From positions 62,001 to 126,000 of the forward strand of contig NZ_FUZE01000004.1 in assembly GCF_900168205.1 (NCBI RefSeq): a stretch of 64,000 nt of DNA. The letters run 5' to 3'. The notes beneath the pieces were generated by a model. That model did not search any database. It was not told where the DNA came from and saw only the letters and a list, made by a program, of their open reading frames with translations. Made by a program: the position numbers and the translations under genes. The first letter of the stretch is position 1. Every line of letters begins with the position of its first letter. The stretch is from Chryseobacterium balustinum. GTDB taxonomy: Bacteria > Bacteroidota > Bacteroidia > Flavobacteriales > Weeksellaceae. Of this stretch, positions 38,148 to 50,290 are shown one piece after another.

Positions 38148-39074
38148 TTACTTCACAAACGAATTATATGAATTCAAAACAGATTCATAAGCAGAATCCA
38201 TTTCCTGAATATTGCTGTCCGGAATTTTTCCTGTAGATTTTGAATCTCTGATTAGCTTTCTGAATTTATCTAAAAAGTCAGAGGCTTTTTGGTTTACACT
38301 TTCAAACTGAGTTTTTTTGTAAGCGTACTGCTGTTCTTTTACATTAAAAACTTTTTTGCTATTATCTGTTACTATTTTTTCAAACTCATCATATTTTTTC
38401 TGTGCTTCGGTCTCATTAAAACTTCCTGTGTATTGTTTATCTAAAAGATCCATTACGGAATCCATTGAGCTCATCAAACCTTTAGAAGAAACTATAAATT
38501 CTTTCATGGGATGATCTTTAAGAATAACTTCTTCTGCCGCATCGGTTGCAGGTTTTATTTTCGTTAAAATATTTTCTCCTGCCGTAAAAAATGCCTGTGC
38601 TTCTGTATCGATATCTTTTTTCAAAGCTTCTGCTTTTGCGCCCTTATCATCTTTATAATCTTCGGAAGTAATATATGATTTCAGTTCCTCAAACTTTTTA
38701 TTAATACTTTCTCTTTTCGCTTTGTAGCTATTAAAATCGGTTTCAATTACCTTTTTATCATTTTCGAAACCAGAAGGAACTTCTTTTATTTTGCTAAGCG
38801 AATAATCCATAGAGCCAATTACAACCGGCATGCTGTACACTGTTTCACCTTTAGATTTTTTAACTGCTGCTTCAGCATATTTTACAATATTTTCAATATG
38901 TCTTGAAGAGGTTTTGTAAGAATCTAAAAAGTCATTATTAAAATCTATAATAGCCTGAGATTCGTTTTCTCCGGCTTTCAGAACGGCATTCCCTATTTTA
39001 TCCATTCCTTTTTTACAGCTTACACTTGCTACACTCAGCGACAAAGCCAGTGCAACCATCATTACTTTTTTCAT
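38148..39074 (-). CDS. YiiG/DUF3829-like lipoprotein downstream of tssF
   Basis: 308 aa. The N-terminus MKKVMMVALALSLSVASVSC is a lipoprotein signal (Cys20). The mature protein is all helical, rich in Lys, Glu and Asp (for example AVLKAGENESQAIIDFNNDF and LKKDIDTEAQAFFTAGENIL), a pattern of DUF3829/YiiG. It starts 23 bp after tssF on the same strand, so it is probably expressed with the baseplate genes. It could be an accessory envelope lipoprotein of this type VI system; that is inference from position. Confidence 0.72.
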   Translation of the reverse strand: MKKVMMVALALSLSVASVSCKKGMDKIGNAVLKAGENESQAIIDFNNDFLDSYKTSSRHIENIVKYAEAAVKKSKGETVYSMPVVIGSMDYSLSKIKEVPSGFENDKKVIETDFNSYKAKRESINKKFEELKSYITSEDYKDDKGAKAEALKKDIDTEAQAFFTAGENILTKIKPATDAAEEVILKDHPMKEFIVSSKGLMSSMDSVMDLLDKQYTGSFNETEAQKKYDEFEKIVTDNSKKVFNVKEQQYAYKKTQFESVNQKASDFLDKFRKLIRDSKSTGKIPDSNIQEMDSAYESVLNSYNSFVK

Positions 39075-39097
39075 ATTTTATAGTTGGATGTTAAAAT

Positions 39098-40975
39098 TTA
39101 ATTTTCAAAAAAATCGGTGTCTTCGTTGCTTATTTTTACGAGATATTCTATCCCGTCAATTGCTTTTGCTACAATTTGGTTTCGCAGAATGTTTGCCATG
39201 TTTTCCCAATACATTCTTCCGTAGAAAGAATAATTGTTGGGTACAATTTCCACCTCAACGGTTCTTACAAAACCTTCTTTTGGTTTGTTGCTGATCATGG
39301 TTCCGCGTTTTACACGAACATCTTTCAGCTCATCTTTCAAAACCATTCGGCAATAGTTTTTTACATCTTCCAGAGAAATTATTTTATCTCTCGTCGTTAA
39401 AGCATATTTGTAAGCCTGAATACTGTCTGAACCTTTCTGCTCTTCTGCTCCGCCGATTGTTTCTGTCAGCAAAATCATAGACTGAGATTTCAATTGGTTT
39501 GAAAGTTCGGTTCCGGGACGCATATGATTGGCAAAAGTGCAATGCGTGATCCAAAATGCAGCGTAAGTATGATCTGTTTTTTCTACAGGTTCCATGATCA
39601 CATAGTTGAGTTCCTGTCTTATATTTCTTTTGGCGTTGTTTACTTTCTGCACCATCGATTTCATCTTATCAGACATTTCGCCAAGCATTCCTTTTACATT
39701 ATCTCTGTTTAGCAAAGAAAATGCCGCAATCTCATCTCTTGTCAATTCAAGAACATTAGAAATCATATCAACCGCATTCCTGTTATTGAAACGTTCCATG
39801 CCGCCTTTTCTTACCGTGTATAAACCTTTTTTAAGATTGTCTGAAGGAGTGAAGGGGATTTCAGTATATTTTCTTCCTTCTCCGTCCTGAACTTCATCTA
39901 CATATAAAAAATGTTCGGCTTCTTCGGTAATCAACGGAATGTTATTTCCCATGATATCTAAGCTATACTCTGTTTTTTTCCAGCCACGATTGTACACAGG
40001 AAAAGCATTTAAAACAAACGTAAAGTTGTCTAAGATTTCTGCAGAAAATTGCGGAGGAAATTCAAAAGTGAGCCACAAATATTCTTTTCCGTTCAGATAT
40101 TTCTCAATTTCTTCTCTTCCTTTTAAGAAATCTAAATTCTCCGGAAGTTCTTTAGTGAAAAGATCCCTCGAAAGACCTGTAACCTCAACAAATCTATGAC
40201 GGTAAATATTTTTAATATCATCAATAATTTTTGTTTTTATCGACTGCTCATGAAATAACTGTTCGTATCCTTCTGCTTCTTTATTTTTCACATAAGATAT
40301 TCCTTCTTTGATGAACATAGGATTTCCGTTGCTGGAAACCGTACTGTAAGGTAAAAGCTTGTAAACAAAATCAAGATGCTCAAACGCGGGATTTGAACAG
40401 TAAAGGCTCAATGTTTTCGGAAACTTTTCGTTTGTAAATTTTGAAACATCAATTCCAATGGTTACTTTTCTGTAATCTTCCGGCCTTCCCTGAAATCTGG
40501 AAATTGGAATTTTATTTAATCTTTCATCTAAACTGTAGCATGTATTTCCTACAAACATAATTGCAGTCTGTGCTTTGTTTGTTCTTACACTGCCAACTGG
40601 TGTGAAAGGAATATTCAGCTGTTTATCTGATTCCGATTTTACAGTGGAGTTCATGTGTTTTTTGAAAAAAAACTCGGTATGTTCCAGCAAAATTTCTGAT
40701 GACTCATATGGCGCGGTGTAAGCTAAAGCATGAGCCGGAATCGGGTGTGTATAAATGGAGGGTGTTAATAGCTTGGCAAGCTTTTCTAAGATTCTTGCAT
40801 TAACGGTTTGAATTTCATTATTCGCTTTAAAAACTTCGGTGCTGAATGCATCAATCAATAATTTTACAAAAGGATCTAGCGACTGAGGGCTTTTCAGTCC
40901 CCAAACTTTTGTAGCATTCTGAAGCATTCTTGCTTTTACGGATTCTTTGGAATAAATATTCTGATCTAAATTCAT
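39098..40975 (-). CDS. tssF: TssF-like type VI secretion baseplate protein
   Basis: 625 aa, soluble. The N-terminus (YSKESVKARMLQNATKVWGL, then LDPFVKLLIDAFSTEVFKAN) and C-terminus (DKIISLEDVKNYCRMVLKDE followed by VRVKRG) fit the TssF baseplate family, related to phage T4 gp6. Two TssF with one TssG make each wedge of the baseplate. It is preceded by the gp25-like tssE gene 23 bp upstream and followed by a lipoprotein gene, all on the minus strand. Its partner tssG is at the left end of the window. Confidence 0.82.
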   Translation of the reverse strand: MNLDQNIYSKESVKARMLQNATKVWGLKSPQSLDPFVKLLIDAFSTEVFKANNEIQTVNARILEKLAKLLTPSIYTHPIPAHALAYTAPYESSEILLEHTEFFFKKHMNSTVKSESDKQLNIPFTPVGSVRTNKAQTAIMFVGNTCYSLDERLNKIPISRFQGRPEDYRKVTIGIDVSKFTNEKFPKTLSLYCSNPAFEHLDFVYKLLPYSTVSSNGNPMFIKEGISYVKNKEAEGYEQLFHEQSIKTKIIDDIKNIYRHRFVEVTGLSRDLFTKELPENLDFLKGREEIEKYLNGKEYLWLTFEFPPQFSAEILDNFTFVLNAFPVYNRGWKKTEYSLDIMGNNIPLITEEAEHFLYVDEVQDGEGRKYTEIPFTPSDNLKKGLYTVRKGGMERFNNRNAVDMISNVLELTRDEIAAFSLLNRDNVKGMLGEMSDKMKSMVQKVNNAKRNIRQELNYVIMEPVEKTDHTYAAFWITHCTFANHMRPGTELSNQLKSQSMILLTETIGGAEEQKGSDSIQAYKYALTTRDKIISLEDVKNYCRMVLKDELKDVRVKRGTMISNKPKEGFVRTVEVEIVPNNYSFYGRMYWENMANILRNQIVAKAIDGIEYLVKISNEDTDFFEN

Positions 40976-40998
40976 AAAATTTTTTTACAAATAAATAT

Positions 40999-41439
40999 TT
41001 AGTCGATGGACATCGGGCTTAGAAAAAGTTCGGTAGAAAAACTGAAACGCTCGCCTGTAGCTTCCATTTTTGCATTGATCCCTATTTTCACTTTTTTCTT
41101 GATTTCCGTATGTTCTTTGGTATCATAGTTATGCTCTACAAGTTTTACATGGGCATCAACTTGTGGCTGTACAATTCGTGGCTCGTATTGTAAGATTTGT
41201 CTTTTAAGACTTTTTACAAATACACTTTCCCAAACTGCTGATGTTACGCCATTATCGAATTCAAGACTCCAAACATCGTTTCCGTAGTTGTCATCATATC
41301 TGTTCTCGCCTTTTTTTGTCGTGATTAAAAGCATAATGTTGTGAGCAATGCTTTCTCCCATATCGCAGGTATCGATACTTCCCCCTTCAGACATGAGTAT
41401 AGAAGGTACAAAAGGCATTCTGTAATTTGGTGTGTCCAT
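40999..41439 (-). CDS. tssE: TssE-like (GPW/gp25 family) baseplate protein
   Basis: 146 aa with the gp25 core: ESIAHNIMLLITTKKGENRY (where phage gp25 has its conserved EPR-like segment) and the paired VKSLKRQILQYEPRIVQPQV, in which the Glu-Pro-Arg is intact. gp25/TssE nucleates sheath polymerisation on the baseplate. It is the first gene of a three-gene minus-strand operon with tssF and the lipoprotein. Confidence 0.85.
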   Translation of the reverse strand: MDTPNYRMPFVPSILMSEGGSIDTCDMGESIAHNIMLLITTKKGENRYDDNYGNDVWSLEFDNGVTSAVWESVFVKSLKRQILQYEPRIVQPQVDAHVKLVEHNYDTKEHTEIKKKVKIGINAKMEATGERFSFSTELFLSPMSID

Positions 41440-44207: not shown

Positions 44208-44241
44208 ATAAAACGCGGAACAAATTGTTCCGCGTTTTTTA
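44208..44241. terminator. Bidirectional terminator
   Basis: AAACGCGGAACA pairs with TGTTCCGCGTTT around a three-base loop, with A before and T after. It separates two convergent genes. Confidence 0.92.
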
Positions 44242-45348
44242 GTCTTCTATTTTGAAATTTACTTCCGCTTCCAGTTTAGGATATTTGGTATCGGAAATAT
44301 ATTTTTTTCCGGTACAGTCAATTTCCAGCCAGCCTTTTCTTTTCTTCACATCTCCCGCCTCTATCACAAAAGGGATAAATGAGATTTCATCTTTACCTTC
44401 TTCGAAAACTTCTCTGTACTGAACTGCGATATCCAAAATACATTCATGATCCGTATTTAATTTTACGTTTCTGTACACAACATCATAATGCGTTTCCTGG
44501 TTTTCAGGAATCTCCTGATAAGCTTCCCAACCTGAAACGTCAGAGTCAAGTTCACTTATTGCTTTTAACGCATAATACAAAGCAATCGTATAATATTTTC
44601 TTGTTTCTTTCCTTGAATAATCATCTGCGAAATGTCCACCTTCAAAAAGGATGGTCGGCATTCCTGCTTTTATAAAATTATCTCCCGTAGAAGTGGGATA
44701 GAACTCATCAGAATATCTTCCAATTTGATTAGGTATTAATTCTTTCAAGTGGTTGTAAACATCCGCAATTACCGCCATGCATTTTTTACGGTTATCAGTA
44801 ACAGTTCGCTCTACATTTTCTGAAGGCGCCAAAAAGGAAAGTGTTGCAGGATGAATTCCATCAGTAGTGAAAATTGTACGCTGCTCATGAAGATTCAGCG
44901 CATAGTCGTATTTTTTTGATGCAGCCAGATTTTTCAGAAATTTAATCTCTTTACTCGCTTCATTATGAAAGTCTCTATTCAGATCTATTTCCGAAGCATT
45001 CAGCCTAGTCCATTTTTCAGAACCATCAGGATTTAACATAAAAATAAAATCTAAACTGATCTTGCTGAACAACTCTTCTTTTAATTCGGGTGTTTTATCT
45101 AAACTCTTCAATAGGTCCAGCATTGCATGGGTCGCATTAGATTCGTTCCCGTGCATTTGTGACCAAGCAAGAATATTGATCTCACCAGTTCCTAAACCTA
45201 ACTTATAAATTGGTTTATCTAAATAAGACCTTCCAATCTCTTGAATGTAATCTTTGAGATTCGTCTGTAAGTAAGAAAATAATTTTTCAGGAGAAATATA
45301 TCGATTAGGGAAATCAGGGTTTGCAGTGTAGAAATGTTTAAAGTTCAT
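44239..45348 (-). CDS. M14-type zinc carboxypeptidase
   Basis: 369 aa from the ATG at 45348 (MNFKHFYTANPDFPNRYISP). The open frame runs 78 bp further up, but a -7 element and an operator-like motif lie inside that extension. The zinc motif is SQMHGNESNATHA (His and Glu), a second His is in ALNLHEQRT, and the catalytic Glu is in TILFEGGHFADDYS. The family removes C-terminal residues or cleaves peptidoglycan-type peptides. There is no signal peptide, so it probably acts in the cytoplasm. Its promoter region shares a 14-bp motif with the XRE regulator gene. Confidence 0.85.
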   Translation of the reverse strand: MNFKHFYTANPDFPNRYISPEKLFSYLQTNLKDYIQEIGRSYLDKPIYKLGLGTGEINILAWSQMHGNESNATHAMLDLLKSLDKTPELKEELFSKISLDFIFMLNPDGSEKWTRLNASEIDLNRDFHNEASKEIKFLKNLAASKKYDYALNLHEQRTIFTTDGIHPATLSFLAPSENVERTVTDNRKKCMAVIADVYNHLKELIPNQIGRYSDEFYPTSTGDNFIKAGMPTILFEGGHFADDYSRKETRKYYTIALYYALKAISELDSDVSGWEAYQEIPENQETHYDVVYRNVKLNTDHECILDIAVQYREVFEEGKDEISFIPFVIEAGDVKKRKGWLEIDCTGKKYISDTKYPKLEAEVNFKIED

Positions 45349-45368
45349 TAATAATAATTTACATTTTT

Positions 45369-45376
45369 CAAAATTA
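45369..45376 (-). promoter_or_regulatory. -7 element for the M14 peptidase gene
   Basis: On the minus strand TAATTTTG matches TAnnTTTG, 20 bp before the ATG at 45348. Confidence 0.6.
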
Positions 45377-45400
45377 ACTATTTTCACTATAAAAATAAAA

Positions 45401-45414
45401 TTTACATCTGTAAT
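45401..45414. promoter_or_regulatory. Operator-like motif over the -33 region of the M14 gene
   Basis: TTTACATCTGTAAT differs at two positions from the palindrome TTTACATTTGTAAA found before the XRE regulator gene. It lies about 25-38 bp upstream of the M14 -7 element, where a bound protein would block the promoter. Confidence 0.45.
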
Positions 45415-45457
45415 AATATTAAACAATACATATTGCCATTTTGTCTGTTAGTTAAAT

Positions 45458-46017
45458 TGTGGATTAACAATAATTCAAAACAATATACTTAAAACACTTA
45501 AAGTCAATTAATTACAATATTTAAATAAAGTAATAAATGAAATGTTCTTTAAGTTGAAATATTACCATTTCTACCAAAATGAGCATAACTAACTCAAACA
45601 AATAATTTGTGGAGAAAATCAACAATTAACCCAATATACAAATGTTAATTGCGGATAACTTTAATTTTAATTCATTCTAATAAGTGTAAAACGAATCTTT
45701 AAATATGGCTTTTAAGACAATATTTTAAAAATGAACATTCGTATATAGAATATTATCCTTAAAAATGAGTAAAAGTAACCATCAATAGTAAAAGGCACCC
45801 ATTTTATTCTATTTTATCAATAGGAACAACTTACAAAACTTACCTTTCAGTGATACCTAGGCCCTTATCCTACTCTATAAAGTTTTAACTCTTATTAATC
45901 ACTAAAAACCGAATTTAACAGCCTATTTTATTCGCAATTATTTTTCAAATTTACATTATCCATCTTATATCTTCATTTACTTTAAATGGAATTTTATCCG
46001 CAATAGATTGTGGAAAC
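45458..46017. other. Cluster of DnaA-box-like motifs (candidate origin or DnaA-binding region)
   Basis: Relative to the DnaA box TTATCCACA, four sites have one mismatch: TAATCCACA (45458-45466, minus strand), TTCTCCACA (45608-45616, minus), TTATCCGCA (45650-45658, minus) and TTATCCGCA (45994-46002, plus). A fifth (TGTGGAAAC, 46009-46017) has two. The sites flank AT-rich DNA. By a rough hand estimate with one third A and one third T, well under one such site is expected in this length. There is no dnaA or dnaN gene in the window, so an origin is only a possibility. Confidence 0.3.
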
Positions 46018-46044
46018 ATTGTTTAGTAATTTACTTGACCAAAT

Positions 46045-46168
46045 TTTACATTTGTAATAAAATACTGATTGATAAGCACTTAAAAGTATTTACTTTTGTA
46101 TATTTAACAATTTAGGATTATTTACATTTGTATTTGTGTTTTGTAAATTTATTATTTACATTTGTAAA
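46045..46168 (+). promoter_or_regulatory. Four operator-like sites TTTACATTTGTAAA overlapping promoter -7 elements
   Basis: The sites are TTTACATTTGTAAT (46045-46058), TTTACTTTTGTATA (46089-46102), TTTACATTTGTATT (46121-46134) and the perfect palindrome TTTACATTTGTAAA (46155-46168). Start-to-start spacing is 44, 32 and 34 bp, near whole helical turns. Each contains TACATTTG or TACTTTTG, which is also a TAnnTTTG promoter element. A protein bound here would hide the promoters. The last site ends 21 bp before the ATG of the XRE regulator, so autoregulation is likely. Confidence 0.6.
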
Positions 46169-46189
46169 TACAATTTTACATCTTCTTGT

Positions 46190-46717
46190 ATGAGTTTAAA
46201 TGAGAGAATTTCAAAAGTTATAGAATATTCAGGGTTTACTCCCTCTGAATTTGCGGATGAAGTAGATGTACAACGGTCGTCTATTTCTCACGTAACGTCA
46301 GGAAGAAATAAACCTTCTCTAGAGTTTATCATCAAAATAAAATCTCGTTTTCCAGAAATTTTATGGGATTGGTTGGTTACTGGAGAGGGTGAAATGTTAA
46401 AGTCTGAACTTCCCGATACAGAAGAACCAGTAACGGAAGAAAAGGTAAAACCTACTTCCCTGCCCGATTTATTTACCATGATAAATAGCGATAAAGATTT
46501 TGGCAGCAAAGAGTTTGAAGAACCAGCCATTATTGAGAGTCCCTCAGAATCGGTTAAAACATATCAAAGTAAAGCAAACGAAAAAATATTCGATTCTCAG
46601 CGATTAGAAAAATCAAATGAAGAAATCATTAATCAAGTCACTGAAAATCAACCTAATAAAATAAAACGCATTATCTTATTTTATGAAAATGGAAAATTTG
46701 AAAGTTTTGAACCATAA
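46190..46717 (+). CDS. XRE-type helix-turn-helix regulator beside the satellite array
   Basis: 175 aa from the ATG at 46190. An upstream GTG would add 18 residues but would include the last operator site. Residues 1-65 are an XRE DNA-binding domain: LNERISKVIEYSGFTPSEFA, then the recognition part VQRSSISHVTSGRNKPSLEF, then ILWDWLVTGEGEML. Residues 70-150 are acidic and probably disordered. The tail KRIILFYENGKFESFEP is, from memory, a conserved C-terminal end in Flavobacteriia relatives. The gene is preceded by four operator-like palindromes and followed by a strong terminator, then by 3.5 kb of tandem repeats. Its target is unknown. Confidence 0.85.
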   Translation: MSLNERISKVIEYSGFTPSEFADEVDVQRSSISHVTSGRNKPSLEFIIKIKSRFPEILWDWLVTGEGEMLKSELPDTEEPVTEEKVKPTSLPDLFTMINSDKDFGSKEFEEPAIIESPSESVKTYQSKANEKIFDSQRLEKSNEEIINQVTENQPNKIKRIILFYENGKFESFEP

Positions 46718-46819: not shown

Positions 46820-49800
46820 TTTCATTTCGGTGAATTTGGCAACATATATTCTTCTAAAACGTTCAAAATTTCAGTAATTCTTCCGGCCAAATTCATAATT
46901 TCAATAGAGATAATTTGAACTTTCTTAAGGTTATTTATCTTAAAATTTTGAGAAAAAAAACAATAATTTAAACTCAAATTTTAGTTCTAAAACAAAAAAA
47001 CAACTGTTATTTTTAGCAATTCTCAACCTTGAAAATGCATTTTTGTCCCGCCTATTTGATGTAATTTACTCATATAAAACTTTGAAAACTTCCGTAATTC
47101 TTCCTGCCAAATTCATAATTTGAATAGAGATAAATACATTTTTGTCCCATCGATTTGATGCAATTTGTTCATCTAAAACTTTCTAAATTTTCGTAATTCT
47201 TCCTGCCAAATTCATAATTTGAATAAAGGTAATTTGAATTTTTTTAGGATTATTTATCTAAAAACTTTAGGGAATTTGACAATAATTCATGTTCTTTTTT
47301 TAGTTTTCAAACACAAAAAACAACTGTTATTTTAGCAATTCTCAACCTTGAAAATGCATTTTTGTTCCATCGATTTGATGCAATTTGTTCATCTGAAGCT
47401 TTCAAAATTCCCATAATTATTTCTTCCAAATTCATAATCTCAATAGAAATAATTTGAACTTTCTTAGGGCTATTTACCTTAAAATTTCGAGAAAAAAAAC
47501 AATAATTTAAAATCAAATTTTAGTTCTAAAACAAAAAACCAACTGTTATTTTTAGCAATTCTCAACCTTGAAAATGCATTTTTGCCCCGCCTATTTGATG
47601 TAATTTACTCATCTAAAACTTTCTAAATTTTCATAAATTCTTCCTGCCAAATCCATAATTTGAATAGAGGTAATTTGAATTTTTTTAGGATTATTTATCT
47701 AAAAAAATTGAAAGAATTTTACAATAATTTTAGCTCAACTTATAGTTTTCCAGCCAAAAAAATACTGTTATTTTAGTAATTTTCAACCCTGAAATTATAC
47801 TTTTGTTCCTTCAATTTAATGCAATTTCTTTGTCTAAATGTTCAAAATCTCCGTGATCATTCATGCCAAATCCGTAATTTGATTAAAAATAATTTGAACT
47901 TTTTTAGGATTATGTATCTAAAAACTTTTAAGATAAATCACATAATTTATGCTCGTTTTTTAGTTTTAAGCACAAAAAATCAATCGTTATTTTAGCTTTC
48001 ACAACCCTGAAAATGCATTTTTGTTCCATTGATTTGATACAATTTACTCATCTAAAACTTTGAAAATTCCCGTAATTATTCCGGTTAAATTCATAATTTG
48101 AATAGATATAATTTGACATTTTTTAGGATTATTTACTTTAAAATTTCGAGAAAAAAACAATAATTTAAGCTCAATTTTTAGTTTTCAAAGACAAAAAAAC
48201 AACTGTTATTTTAGCAATTCTGAGCCTTAAAATACATTTTTGTCCCGTCGGTTTGATGTAATTTACTCATCTAAACCTTTAAAAATTCTCATGATTTTTA
48301 AAGGTTTTTCTAGTTTTCAAGCCAAAAAAGTAACTATTGTTTCAGAAATTTTCAACCCTTACAATACATTTTTGTCCCATCGATTTTATGCAATTTAATC
48401 ATTTGAATCTTTAAAAATCTCCATAATTTTTCACGCCAAAATCATATTTTTAATAGAGTTTGTTTAAACTTTTCAAGGGTTATTTATCTTGACGAAAAAT
48501 AACAATAACTTAAGCTCGATTTTTAGTTTTCAAACTAAAAAAATAACTTTTATTTCGACAATTTCCAACGCATAAAATATATTTTTGTATCGTGTATTTG
48601 ATCTGATTTACTCATCTGAATCTTTGAAAATTTTCATAATTTTTCACTCAGAAATCATATTTCTAATAGAGTTTATTTGAACTTTTTTAGGATTATATAT
48701 CTAAAAACTTTAAGCTAAATCACATAATTCATGCTCATTTTTTAATTTTTAAGCACAAAAAAGTAACTGTTATTTTAGCAATTCTCAATCATGAAAACAA
48801 ACTTTTATTCTTTCAATTTGGTGTAATTTACTCATCTAAAAACTTTCAAAATCTCTGTAATTTTTTTTACTAAATTTATAATTTGAATATAGATTATTTG
48901 AGCTTTTTTATGATTATTTATCTTAAAAATTTGAAAGAATTTTAGCTCAACTTTTAGTTTTCAAGCCAAAAAAAACTACTGCTATTTTAGCAATTCTCAA
49001 CCCTGAAATTATACTTTTGTTCCTTCAATTTAATGCAATTTCTTCGTCTAAATTTTCAAAATCTTCGTGATCATTCCTGCCAAATCCGTAATTTGATTAA
49101 AGGTAATTTGAACTTTTCAGGATTATTTACCTTGAAATTTCGAGAAAAAATCATAGTAATTTAAGCTTAATTTTTAATTTTCAAACACAGAAAAGCAACT
49201 GTTATTTTGGAAATTCTCAGCCTTGAAAACATACTTTTATTACTTCAGTTTGATGCAATTTACTCATCTAAAACTTTCAAAATCTCCGTAATTTGTCCTG
49301 TTAAATTCATAATTTCAAAATAGATTATTTAAATTTTTCAGGATTATTTACCTTGAAATTTCGAGAAAAAATCATAGTAATTTAAGCTTAATTTTTAATT
49401 TTCAAACACAGAAAAGCAACTGCTATTTTGGAAATTCTCAGCCTTGAAAACACACTTTATTCTTTCAATTTGGTGTAATTTACTCATCTAAAACTTTCAA
49501 AATCTCTGTAATTTTCCTACAAATTCATAATTTGAATAGAGATAATTTGAACTTTTTTAGGATTATTTATCTTTAAAACTTCAAGAAAAACTATAATAAT
49601 TTGAGCTCGCTTTTTAGTTTTCAAGCAAAAAAACAACTGCTATTTTAGCAATTTTCAATCATGAAAACACACTTTTATTCTTTCAATTTGATGCAAATTA
49701 TTCATCTAAAACTTTGAAAACTTCCGTTATTTTTCCTGCCAAATCCGTAATTTGATTAAAGGTAATTAGAACTTTTTAGGATTATTTAACTTGAAATTTC

Positions 49801-50290
49801 GAGAAAAAATCATAGCAATTTAAGCTTAATTTTTAATTTTCAAACACAGAAAAGCAACTGTTATTTTGGAAATTCTCAGCCTTGAAAACATACTTTTATT
49901 ACTTCAGTTTGATGCAATTTACTCATCTAAAACTTTCAAAATCTCCGTAATTTGTCCTGTTAAATTCATAATTTCAAAATAGATTATTTAAATTTTTCAG
50001 GATTATTTACCTTGAAATTTCGAGAAAAAATCATAGTAATTTTAGCTTAATTTTTAATTTTCAAACACAGAAAAGCAACTGCTATTTTAGGAATTTTCAA
50101 CTTTGAAAATGCATTTTTGTTCCCTCTACTTGATGCGATTTATCCACCCAAATACTTTGAAAATCTTTATAATTTTCACCACTGAATTCATACTTTTAAT
50201 AGAATTTATTTGAAATTTTTCGGGCTATCTTTCTTTAAAATTTAATAAGAATATCACAATAATCTAAACTCAATTTTTAAGAATATTATA
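46820..50290. repeat. Non-coding satellite: about 15 tandem units of roughly 220 bp
   Basis: The anchor AACTGTTATTTTAGCAATTC, in exact or variant form, recurs at about 47002, 47322, 47541, 47762, 47982, 48201, 48331, 48544, 48764, 48976, 49198, 49419, 49634, 49856 and 50078. Spacing is 212-222 bp except for one 320-bp interval (an internal 100-bp duplication near 47040-47220) and one 130-bp interval (a 90-bp deletion). Partial units flank both ends. Other conserved parts of the unit are TTTGATGCAATTTACTCATC, CCAAATTCATAATTTGAATA, TTTTTTAGGATTATTTATCT and TTTTTAGTTTTCAAGCAC. Length changes are not multiples of three and stops fill all frames, so it is not coding. Units differ by roughly 10-30 percent by eye. 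Terminators stand at both ends. No transposase, CRISPR-like short repeat or tRNA is near. Confidence 0.92.
49076..50098. repeat. Three-unit higher-order repeat at the right end of the satellite
   Basis: Positions from about 49076 to 49440 recur from about 49735 to 50098 with an offset of 658-659 bp, that is three units. Line-by-line comparison shows only a few differences in more than 300 bp, far fewer than between neighbouring units. The block was therefore copied as a trimer recently. Confidence 0.88.

Follow-up and report, generated by a model that had tools for sequence, protein, structure and literature searches.

Conserved palindromes at the promoters of an XRE-family regulator gene and its divergent M14 carboxypeptidase neighbour in Chryseobacterium balustinum: a probable autorepressor with a likely second target

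In the 64,000-nucleotide stretch of Chryseobacterium balustinum DNA analysed here (the window), an XRE-family regulator gene and a divergently transcribed gene for an M14 zinc carboxypeptidase flank an intergenic region (45349-46189) that carries palindromic TTTACANNTGTAAA-type sites at both ends, one set next to each gene. These sites are conserved, they lie on promoter-like elements and the two genes stay paired in other genomes; taken together, this makes it likely that the XRE protein is an autorepressor acting through the palindromes that also sets transcription of the M14 gene, most likely by repression, activation of the M14 gene being the less likely alternative. The two genes are:

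46190..46717, plus strand: XRE/HTH_3 regulator gene (175 aa, start ATG at 46190)
44239..45348, minus strand: gene for the M14 zinc carboxypeptidase, the divergently read partner and probable target, recognised by profile match and neighbourhood comparison

The architecture is known in kind, as divergent regulator-target pairs are a general arrangement that likewise has a shared control region, genes reading outward and sites at both promoters, whereas the present locus stands out by its conservation across families, by the way in which operators interleave with both promoter boxes and by its location at the likely replication terminus. In the open-licence literature, as covered by titles and the beginnings of abstracts, we found no paper describing this regulator, its site or its pairing with the M14 gene. 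For a regulator that is widespread in a large bacterial order and apparently uncharacterised, the analysis supplies a testable operator, a promoter map and a candidate target.

Palindromes and promoter elements upstream of the XRE gene

A pattern scan recovered the four XRE-side sites of the original prediction at 46045, 46089, 46121 and 46155, with the same spacing of 44, 32 and 34 bp, and all four are real; the array is larger than had been proposed, comprising a fifth XRE-side site at 46134 and three further sites (45358, 45401 and 45635) on the M14 side. We compared the region in a footprint set of 81 sequences, consisting of the window and 80 relatives (79 titled Chryseobacterium and one Weeksellaceae MAG, 80 being compared of 134 found), scoring each site by the number of matched palindrome positions out of 12. 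The XRE-side features are as follows:

46045..46058: palindrome O5, 11/12 in the window; weakly conserved, scoring at least 10 in 5/81
46089..46102: palindrome O4, 10/12 in the window; at least 10 of 12 in 80/81, central dinucleotide variable
46121..46134: palindrome O3, 10/12 in the window; at least 10 in 63/81 and at least 9 in 78/81
46133..46136, plus strand: -33 element TTTG, separated by N20 from the -7 element
46134..46147: palindrome O2, the fifth site; degenerate in the window (8/12)
46155..46168: palindrome O1, perfect (12/12) in the window; spans about -14 to -1 of the predicted promoter
46157..46164, plus strand: -7 element TACATTTG (TAnnTTTG) within O1, present in 81/81

Twelve of the 14 bases of O1, TTACATTTGTAA, are invariant in all 81 sequences, and O2, degenerate as it is in the window, reads TTTGCATTTGTAAA in many relatives and scores at least 10 in 58/81. 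Of all the sites in the array, that at 46045 shows the lowest conservation, the TACANNTGTA core being kept in that interval in 30/81. The distance from O4 to O1 is constant (66-68 bp in the 81 sequences), whereas that from O4 to O3, with the search for O3 restricted to -79 to -66, is 32-34 bp in 72 sequences and 23 bp in the other nine, indicating that O3 is displaced by one helical turn. Such a shift suggests phased and possibly cooperative binding, in line with the cooperativity that had been predicted from the close phasing of the sites, although the nine shifted sequences may trace to a single ancestral event. Since O2 and O3 overlap by one base, the two may not be occupied at once.

The promoter elements are embedded in these operators. 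A TTTG, which we take to be the -33 consensus element, is present at N19 or N20 upstream of the -7 element in 75/81 sequences, against a background of 3.7% for three spacings. It lies at the left edge of O2 (in the window TTTG begins one base ahead of O2), and the left half of O2 departs from the palindrome by an A-to-G change in 68/81, as expected if O2 doubles as the -33 box. The sequence within O1 corresponds to the TAnnTTTG consensus located at -12 to -5 (PMC9723704, in whose main text neither 'XRE' nor 'carboxypeptidase' occurs), placing the presumptive XRE transcription start at about 46169. The proposal that operator and promoter are one sequence is firm only at 46155, because TAnnTTTG is lost from O4 in most sequences (36/81 retain it) and matches O2 in 0/81; as the O4 palindrome persists in 80/81, it is the palindrome and not a promoter that has been retained at 46089. 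At its own promoter the XRE protein, probably as a dimer, would thus bind TTTACANNTGTAAA palindromes of which O1 covers the -7 box, O2 overlaps the -33 box, and O3 and O4 lie upstream in helical phase. Binding on the -7 and -33 boxes should block RNA polymerase, which would amount to negative autoregulation through binding that is phased and probably cooperative, and would mean that Bacteroidota promoters of the -33/-7 type can be embedded within the operators of their own repressor.

The array also stands out by its density. Allowing up to two mismatches, the window holds 11 matches (46155 being counted on both strands) compared to a mean of 4.81 after shuffling, and 2 of 100 shuffles reached 11. 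The expectation that the motif would be enriched genome-wide held for paired sites and failed for single ones: single sites with at most one mismatch number 79 in the genome versus 70 for the reversed control, whereas two sites within 4-34 bp of each other, a pattern derived from the XRE locus itself, occur three times, all at the XRE locus, versus 0 for the control. A hand tally over 30 further genomes of the order gave 51 paired matches (matches on both strands at one place being counted separately), 44 of them at the XRE locus (in 22/30 genomes) and 7 elsewhere, equal to the control total of 7. A large regulon, considered as another role for the sites, was rejected in view of the missing enrichment of single sites across the genome.

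Sites at the M14 gene and the extent of the pairing

Across the window and its 80 relatives, conservation rises again beside the M14 gene, where the following features lie:

45358..45371: M14-side site, 10/12; overlaps the putative M14 -7 box and transcription start, the latter predicted near 45364 on the minus strand
45369..45376, minus strand: putative M14 -7 element TAATTTTG (TAnnTTTG), conserved upstream of the ATG
45401..45414: M14-side site, 11/12; near the putative M14 -33 region
45635..45648: third site on the M14 side, at a distance of 287 bp from the gene start; scores at least 10 in 80/81

The 72-bp block next to the M14 gene holds a site scoring at least 10 in 80/81 sequences, compared to 83 of 6000 random 72-bp stretches (1.4%), and a minus-strand TAnnTTTG is present 27-33 bp upstream of the M14 ATG in 79/79 sequences listed (81 examined). 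With conserved sites and a promoter-like element at this end too, the array spans both promoters, and the same protein would be expected to bind the sites on and around the M14 -7/-33 region and to set M14 transcription, repression being the most likely outcome.

To see how far the pairing extends, we relied on a profile of the regulator family (A1, with a threshold of E 1e-12 or better), which matches 138 of 196 genomes of the order, once in 134 and twice in four; among the misses that were listed, 13/20 fall in family f16, whose genomes here measure 0.3-0.6 Mb, and 38 further misses are unlisted. Outside the genus we compared 20 genomes (ten of family f3, one of f4, three of f7, one of f12 and five of other f1 genera) and found the M14 gene no more than 2.5 kb upstream of the XRE gene in 19 of them, directly adjacent in 14 and separated by a single gene in five; in the remaining genome, G108, no M14 gene was found near XRE. 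Among these 19 M14-XRE genomes, 15 have a site no farther than 100 bp from the M14 start and 18 have one no farther than 160 bp from the XRE start, counts in which the M14 start of G090 and the XRE start of G099 are uncertain. G090, G068, G097 and G105 yielded no site in the 100 bp nearest the M14 start, and G068 has none at XRE either at the threshold used. When a gene intervenes, as in G165, G196 and G067, site sets persist at both M14 and XRE, and the M14-side offsets (54-58 and 289-293) match those of the window (53 and 287). The intervening gene in these three related genera (loci L199, L200 and L201) encodes a membrane protein, presumably TerC-like as judged by eye.

The regulator extends beyond the order, as 32 of 119 genomes of the wider class match its profile, five of them from the order. 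At 25 of the 27 matching outside-order genomes we compared the surrounding sequences and found a site within 400 bp upstream of the gene in 22/25, versus 3/25 in a downstream control that used default starts for several loci, wrong for L308 and L314. An M14 gene was found in none of these 25 relatives in up to 1.5 kb upstream (only 117 bp for L314), and the same search recovered M14 in 4/4 loci from the order that served as a positive control. With sites present outside the order and no M14 gene found there, autoregulation looks older than the M14 link, and control of M14 looks like the derived part of the system. The same distribution could be read to mean that the gene is purely autoregulatory, with the M14-side sites being leftovers or serving looping while M14 expression is independent of the regulator. 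We regard this as unlikely, because the M14-side sites are conserved as well as the XRE-side ones and stay with the M14 gene despite an intervening gene, as described above. Joint control of both genes by the XRE protein is the reading we retain.

The regulator and the carboxypeptidase

The XRE identity that had been assigned by the original prediction was borne out by PF01381 (HTH_3), which the protein matches with 25.3 bits, above the gathering cut-off of 23. An AlphaFold2 model (mean pLDDT 62, pTM 0.36) predicts the five-helix fold with helices at residues 3-14, 18-25, 29-36, 44-53 and 59-64, and divides the protein into an HTH block (residues 3-64, pLDDT 68-80), a linker of low confidence and a beta-hairpin at the C-terminus (161-173). 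The five-helix N-terminal HTH and the palindromes on its own promoter are shared with HTH_3/XRE repressors of the Cro-CI-SinR type (PF01381), and CylR2 and SinR are among the PDB sequence matches, whereas the present regulator, a widespread chromosomal gene, shows a linker and beta-hairpin tail and no CI-type C-terminal domain was seen. The tail motif can be recognised in an alignment of 13 proteins, where I161 and Y165 do not vary.

The original prediction had likened the protein to phage-type repressors. A bistable repressor of this kind, captured from a mobile element and using cooperative operators to control a switch, would account for the several phased sites and for the weak resemblance to two phage repressor families. 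However, both matches fall under the curated cut-offs, with 21.1 bits versus 22 for Phage_CI_repr (PF07022) and 29.7 versus 80 for the phage RstR repressors (NF041951, to which the HTH region aligns). Moreover, the gene is widespread and mostly single-copy in the order, its neighbour is conserved in several families and no phage gene was noticed among the genes around it, leaving a phage origin of this kind only a very slight chance. The widespread chromosomal autorepressor is the interpretation that better fits these matches and this distribution.

The M14 protein matches PF00246 with 31.6 bits (cut-off 21.6), and H66, E69, N124, R125, H154 and E236 (HxxE, H, NR, E) are invariant in 20/20 aligned sequences; we assume these to be the zinc and carboxylate-binding residues of the active site. 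The closest NCBIfam hit, the murein tripeptide amidase MpaA (NF007897), was scored at 27.7 bits, far under the cut-off of 157. By eye no signal peptide is apparent. XRE-ImmA pairs are a known regulator-peptidase system, and by analogy the M14 enzyme might trim the C-terminal tail of the regulator and so relieve repression. The position of the tail motif at the extreme C-terminus with its two invariant residues, the retained active-site residues and the seeming lack of a signal peptide are in keeping with such a role, which is nonetheless exceedingly improbable: the profile matches reach into the tail (position 138-140) in 14/27 outside-order genomes, where no adjacent M14 gene was found, and the nearest named family is that of MpaA. 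We continue to view the M14 gene as a probable transcriptional target of the XRE protein.

Position near the replication terminus and neighbouring sequences

An unexpected feature of the XRE gene is its chromosomal position. In 29/29 genomes (a set of 28 genomes of one or two contigs each, plus G002) it falls within the terminus arc that 16S orientation defines, compared to 23/27 for ProDH, with arcs that are wide (12-50% of the circle). Outside the genus the counts are 18/18 for XRE and 13/17 for ProDH, and in ten Chryseobacterium genomes XRE lies within 3.6% of the genome from the arc midpoint. ProDH is the sole control gene and is itself linked to XRE in those ten genomes and many others; G068 and G097, which gave no 16S match, are outside the count, and six genome lengths entered as rounded values. 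The window genome, with its 72 contigs, is absent from the terminus counts as well. Fits of total GC skew, with a sampling step of 0.13-0.28 Mb, place the flip at or beside XRE in 5/5 sampled genomes from 3 families:

G013: total-skew flip at 2.54-2.62 Mb, XRE at 2.517
G105: total-skew flip at 0.64-0.80 Mb, XRE at 0.650
G097: total-skew flip at 0.89-1.03 Mb, XRE at 0.989
G130: total-skew flip at 5.29-5.51 Mb, XRE at 5.291
G067: total-skew flip at 0.16-0.27 Mb, XRE at 0.291

Cumulative skew across 400 kb of G105, in 1-kb steps, peaks at 646,001, 4 kb from the start of the gene at 649,919; a change-point fit with two means favours 557-567 kb, although 646,001 remains within 2 log units. Other fits partly disagree, third-codon-position skew giving 3.11-3.28 for G013 and 4.47-4.69 for G130, and gene strand giving a reversed result for G105, 0.56-0.66 for G067 and 5.02-5.24 for G130, somewhat before the gene. 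In the window no skew flip was seen at XRE, the skew being negative on both sides from about 26 kb to the end, and a search of 6 genomes with a dif pattern brought up no site that recurs next to XRE. On balance, the proximity of XRE to the terminus is likely real.

This position raises the idea that the array is a nucleoprotein landmark at the terminus, acting in arrest, segregation or dimer resolution, with autoregulation setting the level of the protein. There are precedents: the genes for RTP and Tus adjoin their own binding sites at the terminus (RTP with TerI/TerII and Tus with TerB), and they resemble the XRE gene in lying there beside their own sites and in being autoregulated. Both have folds unrelated to that of the XRE regulator, which further differs from them in that its sites are symmetric and that no dispersed perfect sites of note accompany them. 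The arc counts, the skew flips and the finding that paired sites elsewhere are no commoner than in the control speak for a landmark. Against it, the M14 gene, a conventional target, accounts for the sites; perfect palindromes away from the XRE locus are few and scattered (14 genomes); inversions symmetric about the origin-terminus axis could hold the gene in place without any role there; and the position itself is judged by one control gene, with skew fits that disagree in G013, G130, G105 and G067 and a window in which the skew keeps its sign across XRE. We thus consider a landmark function very improbable, although, if the position were functional, it would offer a handle on replication termination in this order. 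The regulation of XRE and M14 transcription is, as before, the function that we favour for the array.

The intergenic region also contains four DnaA-box-like sequences within 545 bp of the window, found in a motif scan with what we take to be the DnaA box consensus:

45458, 45608 and 45650 (M14 control region, 45458..45658): DnaA-box-like, one mismatch each
45994: DnaA-box-like, one mismatch

In the 80 relatives, the 840 bp upstream of XRE hold 3.1 boxes per kb with at most one mismatch, compared to 0.41 in the rest of the loci, and 0.91 versus 0.013 exact boxes per kb, a density about 70 times higher. In 77/80 loci a DnaA-like box is present no more than 330 bp from where the M14 match starts, versus 353 of 3000 random 330-bp stretches. 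The boxes are mostly located in the M14 control region, though the locus sits close to the terminus rather than to the origin. The density of boxes had suggested an oriC, which was dropped because 16S orientation places the locus opposite the origin. That the regulator might be a hitherto uncharacterised Flavobacteriales terminus protein, its complex with the array marking or acting at the terminus while the M14 gene and the DnaA-like boxes link a peptidase to completion of the replication cycle, has in our estimation a very faint prospect.

On the other side of the XRE gene, a tandem array of AT-rich units of about 220 bp (46844-50234) occupies the gap to ProDH, which elsewhere has a median of 465 bp (76 loci). 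All 9 matches of the unit in the genome lie in 46844-50234 (40 of 153 candidates scored), and among the 80 relatives the unit is present in only two, L047 (16 hits) and L046 (2 hits before the contig end), the array being lineage-specific. A regulator dedicated to these repeats was rejected, the regulator and its sites being far more widely distributed than the unit. If the original prediction that the protein organises the locus next to it referred to the repeats, it does not hold; the regulator appears to serve its opposite neighbour, the M14 gene. In L065, L072 and L082 the XRE-ProDH gap contains tandem repeats with different periods. Farther away in the window, minus-strand open reading frames at 38148-41439 presumably encode proteins resembling type VI secretion baseplate components, as judged by eye.
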